Part shown: piece after piece, positions 305 to 2,996 of the stretch
Position numbering within the stretch: the stretch's first letter is position 1
Layout of the letters: every line of letters begins with the position of its first letter
From: Treponema sp.
GTDB lineage: Bacteria > Spirochaetota > Spirochaetia > Treponematales > Treponemataceae
Assembly (NCBI GenBank): GCA_016286365.1
Contig: JAEESN010000001.1
Location: forward strand, 1-64,000
Length of the DNA: 64,000 nt
Direction of reading: 5' to 3'
Made by a program: the position numbers and the translations under genes
The notes under the pieces: generated by a model
The model's database searches: none
The model's input: the letters and a program-made list of their open reading frames with translations, nothing else
What the model was told of the DNA's origin: nothing

Positions 305-2996
305 GTGAAAAATAAGTTATTTTGTAAAGTTTATAGTCTAATTTTCTCTTTCTTTCTTTCTTTCTTTCTTTCTTTCTTCATGTGAAGTTTTTGTTACCTC
401 CGTCCATGGCTATCTGAATAAATATAGTCAGCAGATATATCTTGACGATGTAGTTCCCGAAGTTGACTACGCTATAGATAAATATGGAAATAAATGTATT
501 CCTTCGACTCTGGGTAGGGATTTTACTTTTAATATAGATTTTATTAATCTTGCAAATCATCAATTTGAGTTTAAATATAGATTTGCAGGAGAGGAATGGA
601 AAACGGTTCCAAGTAATACATCAGCTGTATGTTTTCTACCTTATGGAACCACAGATAAGCCCAAACTTTTTTTCCGTAATGATTATCTTCAAGCAAAAGA
701 TAAACCTGGAGCCGACAGAACTATAGAAGTAAAATTGTGCTTTATTGACAGGACTTTAAATATTGATCCAAATTTTCAGATTGATGAAGTTAATCCGGAT
801 GACAGGGTTCAGACAAAAATCTACACATTAAAATGCAATGTAAATACAAGGCCCGAAATCATCTATGACGATACATTCGATGATTCTCCGACTATGGGCA
901 CTTATAGGGACGACCAGAATAATATTTACAATTTCCTCTGTTTTAATTTAAAGCCCGAAACCCAAAGCAATGCATGTTTTTATAATGATTTAAAGGATTC
1001 TTCCGGGAATTATAATCTGAACATAAATGGAACTGATTATCCTTTTAAATTTGTAAACGGAAAGCCTGTTTTCCAGTCCGATTCTTTTAAATCATCCAAA
1101 GATGATTTTCCTTTTGTAAATTATATTAATCCTGATTTTGAAACAAAAGATAATCCTGTTTATTTTCTTACAGGAAAAAAAGTTTCCGAATTTAATATCA
1201 CTGTAACTGACGAAGATGGCCTTCAAAAGAAATACTTTGTTTCCGGGGCAACATCCGGTAAGTATAAATTAACAAATCCAACTGCAAGTCAAAATGGTGA
1301 TGTGGTTATAATTAGTACCGACTGCAGGGCAAATGCGATTAGCGGAAGTGGTTCAACAACTGCAAAAAACGTTTCTGTAGAATACACTCTTAATGGCGTA
1401 ATAAAAACAATTCCGGTTCAAAGTGGTAAAGCCTTAATATATATTCCCGGTGGAACTTCCACAATTACATACAAAACAACCTGTGGCAGTAGAGGCGACA
1501 TAAAACCTTCCGATGAACAGACTTTCGTAAGCCATCTTGATAATAAACTTTATGTTACACCTTCTCCAGAGAATGCAGATTGGGCCGGTGGTTCAAGCAG
1601 CCACCCTACAACCCTAACCAAAGCCGTAGCCTGTCTTAATGGCAAAGGAGGCGAATGGGAATTACATTTAGCTTCCGGTACATATACGGCAACAGAAAAT
1701 GATATGGTAACTGGCGGTCAAACTTATAGTACATGGGTACATATTACCGGGCCAGATAAAGTGATAATAAGCGGACCTTCCGCACAAAACCATGCAACTA
1801 TTGATGCAAATAGTAAAGGAAGGGTTTTAAGTACAAATGGTACTGAACTTGAAATAGAAAACGTTAATTTTACAGGTGGACTTGCAACCGCTAAGAATGG
1901 TGGGGGGCTTTATGTCCAAGAAGCAAAGCTTACATTAAATAATTGTACTTTATATGGAAATGTGGCTGGTTCATATGGTGGAGCAATATACTATAAAACA
2001 TCATCATCGGCAAAGAGTCTGTCTGTTGTTAATACAACCATTGGTGATCTTGATCATCCAAACCAGGCAACAGAGGGTGGCGGTTTATATATCAGTGTTT
2101 CAGTATCGGGATCAACCATTCAATTTAAAAATTCAATAATTGGTTCAACAGATACTTCCAGACCAAATGATTTTGCAAACATTGCTACATTTAATTACAA
2201 TACAACAAGTGGTGGAGGTGGCGGTATTAAGATTGATTATGGGGATAATAACCCTGATGCAATAGATATTAAATTTGAGAAAACCAGCATAAAGAAAAAT
2301 AAATCAGCAAGACATGGAGGTGGGATTTATATCTGCCAGAAAAAAACTGTTATATTTGATTATGATTGCGAGGTTAGTTATAACAATGCAGTAAATGGAG
2401 GAGGAGGTATTTTTCTTGAATTTAATAATGCGCATAATACTGAGTGTGCTCAAGTGCAACTGGGTGATGTGTCTAAAGCCCCTCAAGATCCTTCTCTTCA
2501 TAGAATGAAGGTAAATAATAATGAGGCAAAAAATGGTGCAGCTGTTTATTGTTCATATAATGCTACTGTCTATGTAAAAAATACACAGATAAATAATAAT
2601 ATAACTACAGAGGCACATAGGTGTATTATATATTTTGAATCTAATGTAAATTTTTATAATTGGAGTGATGGCAACACAATAACAGAAATTAAGAATAATA
2701 CAGATAATCAAAATGGTTATGTATATGGTATATATTTTAATTATGACGATAACGGAGATAAAAATTATAATTTCCTCGATATGTCAGATAGTAATTATTT
2801 CTACATCCCGTATAATTCACAAGCCTCGTATGTTTTAAAAGAAGAATGCTTTACTTATGGCTCACCACAAAAAGTAGTAACTTCAAATTTTACATTAGTT
2901 TATGAAGATAGGTATAATACAAAAAGGAAAAATCGTTTTGTAGTACAAAATGGCAATATAACAAATACACATATTAACGATTGGGACACTTTATAA
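305..2996 (+). CDS. Phase-variable beta-helix surface lipoprotein, out of frame as printed
   Basis: A long reading frame runs without a stop from 342 to TAA at 2994-2996 but has no usable start until a TTG at 735. A GTG at 305, preceded by GGTGAG (290-295), opens a good lipoprotein signal peptide (MKNKLFCKVYSLIF, then FFLS repeats). It is encoded through a (CTTT)7 tract and stops at TGA 383-385, after 26 codons. Removing one 4-base unit (or adding two) joins it to the long frame and gives ...FFLSFFLSSCEVF, with lipobox LSSC and Cys at residue 25. The body resembles the downstream paralogue: an N-terminal domain with PEIIYDD and NGKPVFQ, then a right-handed beta-helix rich in GGGLY/GGGIY turns and N/T ladders from about 1850 on. 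It is probably a lipid-anchored surface protein. The function of the beta-helix is unknown. A sequencing error in the tract is possible. Confidence 0.75.
348..378 (+). repeat. Tetranucleotide tract (CTTT)7 plus CTT, in signal-peptide codons
   Basis: A perfect CTTT repeat of seven full units (348-375) is followed by CTT (376-378). A 4-base unit encodes a periodic F-F-L-S hydrophobic core, so changes in unit number alter the frame while keeping the membrane segment hydrophobic. In the frame starting at GTG 305, seven units lead to a stop at 383-385, eight would lead to a stop at 415-417, and six or nine would be fully open. This is the usual layout of slipped-strand contingency loci. Confidence 0.95.

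Follow-up and report, generated by a model that had tools for sequence, protein, structure and literature searches.

A tetranucleotide tract within the signal peptide of a predicted Treponema surface lipoprotein as a probable phase-variation switch

In Treponema sp., a 32-bp array of the tetranucleotide CTTT located between a start codon and the lipobox of a predicted surface lipoprotein very probably acts as an ON/OFF switch; switches of this kind are known, but had not been described at such a place. We put the probability that this gene is a phase-variable (contingency) locus at about 0.86. This reading, first advanced in a preliminary description of the sequence, entailed a prediction that might have failed, namely that tracts should occur at the same place in relatives, and it held; a second, that long CTTT tracts should be found in all phases, and a third, that close relatives should differ in tract length, held as well, the latter for one CTTT pair and one poly-G pair. 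The window, i.e., the whole 64,000-nucleotide stretch analyzed, opens a 511-kb contig and covers its first 64 kb; the genome measures 2.68 Mb and is 99% complete. The features discussed below are collected in Table 1.

Table 1. Features at and around the focal lipoprotein gene, with positions given in the window
Feature	Position	Strand	Basis or state
IS3-type insertion sequence, right end (transposase C-terminal 32 aa)	1..127	+	Pfam rve_2, E=2.6e-9
Ribosome-binding-like GGTGAG, 9 nt upstream of GTG	290..295	+	sequence; role presumed
Start-proximal frame: GTG, n-region MKNKLFCK, beginning of h-region, tract, stop TGA 383-385	305..385	+	OFF as assembled
Main frame, 884 codons: lipobox LSSC, predicted beta-sandwich domains, then predicted right-handed beta-helix	342..2996	+	ORF, structure model
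Perfect tetranucleotide array (TCTT)8 = (CTTT)7 plus partial units	347..378	+	TRF, 100% matches
Lipobox Cys codon	381..383	+	Cys without exception in an alignment of 20 members of the family
Tandem paralogue, 1236 aa, lipobox VFSC (...LVLSVFSC), Cys24, without tract	3117..6827	+	sequence

The CTTT array and the two frames that it separates

The (CTTT)7 tract recognized in the preliminary description lies at 348-375, within the 32-bp array delineated by TRF. This is the sole tetranucleotide array of the window, in which the next longest lag-4 run measures 13 bp, and a search for CTTTx4 across the 2.68-Mb genome returned no copy besides it. Given the lag-4 match rate of 0.269 in the window, arrays of this kind, with 28 consecutive matches, are expected about 2e-10 times per genome; thus, the focal array is not due to chance. 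It accordingly displays what is looked for in a contingency locus: a perfect tandem repeat beyond chance expectation, with a unit not divisible by three, placed inside a reading frame.

The main frame opens right behind a stop at 339-341 and its earliest ATG, GTG or TTG is the TTG at 735, in agreement with the earlier claim that it has no proper start. The GTG at 305, likewise previously recognized along with its upstream GGTGAG, yields the translation VKNKLFCKVYSLIFSFFLSFFLSFFM*, which ends at the stop at 383-385. The tract lies between this GTG and the long frame such that only every third length fuses the two; unfused lengths meet a stop at codon 18-42, with one unit more than assembled leading to a stop at 415-417. 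Frame arithmetic bears out the earlier statement that one unit number in three is open and the others terminate at these two sites, and a change in unit number toggles the product between an intact and a truncated form. In the present assembly, which provides a single tract length from one genome, the gene is OFF.

Two alternatives bear directly on this call. As repeats are error-prone, the unit number could have been misassembled or missequenced, with the true genome being in frame and the gene simply expressed. We consider this unlikely since a 32-bp array fits inside a short read; moreover, a miscount would remove the OFF call only, with the tract, its position and the contingency-locus reading surviving. 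Genus-wide searches, together with searches of viral contigs and plasmids, recovered no second genome of the same species. The other alternative, that the current sequence yields a protein from a start other than ATG, GTG or TTG or by translational re-initiation, is extremely improbable, as the frame lacks any of these three codons between the stop at 339-341 and position 735, and initiation at the latter would drop the lipobox and about 130 residues.

We recognize bacterial lipoproteins by a charged n-region, a hydrophobic core, and a lipobox Cys within about 15-35 residues of the start. In the joined lengths, the focal product displays all of these in the form of the n-region MKNKLFCK, an FFLS core, and the LSSC motif. 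The Cys becomes residue 21, 25, 29 or 33 and the lipobox remains L-S-S-C throughout, because three added units make exactly one FFLS period. Hence, two further points of the preliminary description stand: fusion of the frames creates a lipoprotein signal peptide with a lipobox (Cys codon at 381-383), and the repeat encodes a hydrophobic FFLS period, such that the tract can grow and stay coding.

We propose that the array would supply the latter half of this signal peptide's hydrophobic core, and that slipped-strand mispairing at the focal locus during replication would gain or lose 4-bp units. In one length class in three, the GTG would be in frame with the lipobox and an exported part of about 870 residues (ON), while the two other classes would run into a stop within a few dozen codons (OFF); by this means, tract length presumably governs expression in the focal species. 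Each gain of three units would add one more FFLS period, a growth that the signal peptide should tolerate with its lipobox kept. Such a switch could generate a mixed population of cells with and without the lipoprotein, which is presumably exported to the cell surface, and this heterogeneity may be of benefit to the bacterium.

The lipoprotein family and its predicted structure

Using a profile of the N-terminus built from the in-genome paralogues, we found this lipoprotein family in 76 of the 200 genomes of the genus. Within the focal genome, the gene is followed by the tandem paralogue, whose VFSC lipobox with Cys24 and lack of a tract are as previously described, and further paralogues reside on contig C29, namely two genes of 1405 and 655 aa and a truncated stub. 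The focal protein and all these paralogues have the Cys context SC..F..S...YL..Y in common. The stub (L012 9745-9957, 12007-12672) is fused to a TetR-like fragment resembling the adjacent TetR gene, a fusion left by local duplication and recombination within this second paralogue cluster. A search of a collection of genome contigs for named relatives of the entire focal protein found none.

An AlphaFold2 model computed from 20 family rows (mean pLDDT 75, with most of the helix above 90) predicts N-terminal beta-sandwich domains followed, from approximately residue 400, by a right-handed parallel beta-helix. In structural alignments, the region spanning residues ~400-800 matches the rhamnogalacturonan lyase 5olr (Z 25.2, rmsd 3.3 over 297 residues), with other matches of the beta-helix being polysaccharide lyases, phage tailspikes and further beta-helix proteins; this fold does not imply an enzyme function. 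The top Foldseek rows (cytokine receptors, fibronectin) were rejected as they have low TM and reflect only a generic beta-sandwich likeness, and a sequence search against solved structures gave no convincing relative. The Pfam model Chlam_PMP scores 15.4 bits on the focal protein, which is under its cut-off of 20.6 and leaves the protein outside that family. Other members of the lipoprotein family pass the curated cut-offs for Chlam_PMP, Beta_helix or the Listeria-Bacteroides repeats, and a distant member in the genome G170 reaches 31 bits with Chlam_PMP. Our prediction for the focal product is a lipoprotein of the cell surface, in which an Ig/FnIII-like stalk carries a head formed by the parallel beta-helix; it might function as an adhesin or a glycan-binding surface protein.

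CTTT tracts in related treponemes and the state of the focal gene

CTTTx5 is present in three of the 200 genus genomes, and in two of the three it falls within signal peptides of the focal lipoprotein family. In Treponema sp. UBA3813 (G118:C50, contig DFEB01000020), a 35-bp CTTT array forms the core of MKKLKFLSFFLSFFLSLLISCGDIF... and is in frame (ON) with a long ORF of this family (E=1.8e-10). A tree of the N-terminal domains places the focal and UBA3813 genes in different supported clades (100/99 and 99/96), among tract-free members; thus, two independent gains of CTTT are the most economical explanation. The tract is absent from the remaining close family members of the focal genome and from G170, the closest relative having family members, and none was found in about 30 other homologous loci. 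In an order-wide sample, another lipoprotein-like ORF, in G076, has an out-of-frame CTTT array within its signal peptide. The CTTTx5 matches of G224, the third genus genome, and of G062 and G454 in the order-wide sample were rejected, the first lying outside any signal peptide and the latter two not being signal peptides.

Two further observations pertain to these genomes. Just 5' of its tract, the gene of UBA3813 offers two ATGs that are not in the same frame (L064 1538-1545), and might by means of them have two expressed phases out of three. In G224:C105 (L071 1461-1520), GAAA is repeated about 14 times in a row approximately 80 bp upstream of an HD-GYP-type gene; no array of this sort seen in the genus was longer.

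The setting of the focal gene raises the possibility that it is a decaying pseudogene, silenced by the tract frameshift or by a nearby IS insertion and no longer expressed or selected. The contig starts within the IS3-type transposase, with bases 1-127 being a collapsed repeat that has 100% identical copies at two other contig ends, and about 178 bp separate this IS end from the GTG downstream of it. Along with the proximity of the IS, the lack of a start codon in the main frame as assembled and the truncated paralogue stub joined to TetR-like DNA, which indicates that gene loss occurs in the family, are in line with decay. However, all 884 codons are free of a stop or a second frameshift, and related members with a tract at the same place are long and in frame. 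Furthermore, the length of the tract requires repeated slippage, and its position is exactly where expansion leaves the signal peptide usable. We accordingly regard decay as distinctly unlikely and favor an intact contingency locus captured in its OFF phase.

Just 3' of the IS end is a palindromic extragenic element, GTGTAGCGCAC(G/T)AGTGCGCGGTTTT (window 145-169), with a second copy elsewhere in the genome (L027 1505-1529) that is 87% alike over 60 bp. An Rfam search of window positions 1-7000 detected no RNA element.

Poly-G tracts at the same place in the family and across the genus

We fetched and read the N-termini of 80 family members, five of which have a G8-G10 run behind the start codon and ahead of the h-region, two ON and three OFF (many of the genomes used for comparison are probably MAGs, where homopolymers may have a wrong length and the presence of a tract is a safer reading than its length). 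These are a G10 in G120:C16 (OFF), a G9 in G122:C15 (ON), and three members with differing states in the single genome G168: a G9 in C149 (ON), a G9 in C181 (OFF), and a G8 in C173 (OFF). A C10 run in L052 was rejected as an N-terminal tract, being located in the gene body. Comparison with homologues, which the preliminary description had proposed as a check, thus uncovers a second family member with a CTTT tract and five with poly-G tracts, all in the corresponding functional position. That one family uses two tract types at this place suggests selection for switching itself.

A scan of the genus for ATGAARA followed by 6-36 nt and G8 returned approximately 231 matches in 71 of the 200 genomes, about eight times the roughly 29 matches in 18 genomes obtained with a backward-pattern control (totals summed by hand, with overlapping registers counted). 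Many of the matches are lipobox signal peptides, in both states. In a near-identical pair with flanks 97-98% alike, G134 (L241) has G8 and is ON, whereas G009 (L230), a copy with a short N run behind its signal peptide, has G9 and is OFF. Start-proximal poly-G signal peptides are seen in many different lipoproteins, for example L233, L234, L236 and L238, with more examples in L246, L250, L253 and L256.

CTTT signal peptides across phyla

We scanned the bacterial and archaeal genomes of GTDB for TGAARAA, as a start-like motif, followed by 6-36 nt and CTTTx4. Of the 66 resulting stretches, about half (32) are signal peptides with an array core before an ORF, a number that says nothing on enrichment as the pattern itself targets start-proximal arrays. 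These cross-phylum CTTT signal peptides (L081-L146) come mostly from Saprospiraceae and other Bacteroidota, and are additionally found in Legionellaceae, Bacillales, Aminicenantes, Planctomycetota and others. The state was scored for 34 loci, comprising the 32 scan loci, the focal gene and G076. Tracts of at most 20 bp are ON in seven cases and OFF in one, those of 21-27 bp are evenly split (6 ON, 6 OFF), and those of at least 28 bp are ON in 3 cases and OFF in 11. The short and long tracts differ in their ON/OFF distribution (Fisher p=0.006, with length bins set after seeing the data), while the long ones are no different from the one-third ON expected for free slippage (p=0.41). Divergence by a single unit is seen between Phaeodactylibacter xiamenensis (L082), with a 26-bp tract that is ON, and a related MAG (L115), with a 22-bp tract that is OFF, the two being 92% identical over 2 kb.

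These data also bear on the proposal that codon usage for an FFLS-rich hydrophobic core, in a genome rich in AT, produced the CTTT array as a stable by-product, with no switching involved. The runs of up to 20 bp found in the signal peptides of many bacteria do behave in this manner, being mostly in frame like stable sequence. Nevertheless, arrays as long as the focal one fall out of frame at roughly the rate expected by chance, and coding for FFLS leaves the neighboring poly-G tracts of other family members unexplained, making a stable by-product highly unlikely for the focal gene.

The hydrophobic FFLS period encoded by CTTT would allow this repeat to emerge and expand within signal-peptide cores. 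We consider it likely, with clearly less assurance than we have for the focal locus itself, that signal peptides are a recurrent and convergent nursery for contingency loci, with CTTT arising and growing in the cores of unrelated phyla, and gut-type treponemes adding start-proximal poly-G to run a large, undescribed repertoire of ON/OFF surface lipoproteins.

Relationship to known phase-variation systems

The switching mechanism is already known from Neisseria Opa and Helicobacter OipA. In the neisserial opa genes, pentameric CTCTT units in the leader-peptide region switch Opa (PMC3960869). As in the focal gene, a short repeat of a length not divisible by three lies in the region coding for the signal peptide and shifts the frame by its unit number, the product is an ON/OFF surface protein, and there are several family members per genome. 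However, the focal unit is the tetranucleotide CTTT, and the product is an unrelated beta-helix lipoprotein with a lipobox from Spirochaetota rather than an outer-membrane barrel; these differences place it outside the Opa family and only its working is Opa-like. Similarly, oipA of Helicobacter pylori is switched by a CT dinucleotide repeat in its 5' region (PMC10564699). There too, slipped strands close to the 5' end shift the frame of a gene whose product is an exported surface protein, while the repeat unit, protein family and phylum are different.

Tetranucleotide phase-variable loci are known from Haemophilus influenzae (PMC2651432). Like the focal tract, these repeats lie near the 5' end of genes affecting the cell surface, but the focal array stands apart in encoding the h-region of a signal peptide. 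The repeat units and gene families of the H. influenzae loci are also unlike those of the focal locus. The polymorphic membrane proteins of Chlamydia are surface proteins with variable expression. They resemble the focal protein in having short GGAI/FxxN-like repeats in a beta-helix, and are distinguished from it by its being a lipoprotein and by its Chlam_PMP score below the Pfam cut-off. Closer in phylogenetic terms, Treponema pallidum, of the same bacterial family, displays poly-G phase variation, e.g., of TprL (PMC7864442), and has known repeat-mediated repertoires (PMC11868660). The focal genome shares with it repeat-mediated phase variation as predicted here, and also has a G12 promoter tract (see below). 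Known poly-G variation in T. pallidum mainly involves promoter or homopolymer tracts, unlike the coding tetranucleotide of the focal gene.

What is apparently new is the tetranucleotide lipoprotein form of the switch, the occurrence of two tract types in one family, and an undescribed treponeme repertoire. In the open-access literature, in which absence is weak evidence, we found no paper that deals with CTTT tracts of signal peptides, with a tetranucleotide in a lipoprotein signal peptide, with gut treponemes as phase-variable organisms, or with a single family using both kinds of tract at one position. If our reading is true, commensal treponemes of the gut type, to which we take the focal organism to belong from its genus and from the group around Treponema sp. 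UBA3813, would vary their surface through repeat slippage in the manner of pathogens such as Neisseria. A repeat tract between a start codon and a lipobox would then serve as a DNA signature for phase-variable genes, and existing reads should suffice to score the focal tract, given its short length.

The G12 tract of the focal genome lies upstream of another small lipoprotein gene (MKKMLFGLLVLVSLCFMGCDLSP...; L261 992-1510, G000:C17:100655-100666). It sits between a perfect -35 TTGACA and a -10-like GATAAT with a spacer of 20, an arrangement resembling poly-G promoter switches of the porA type.
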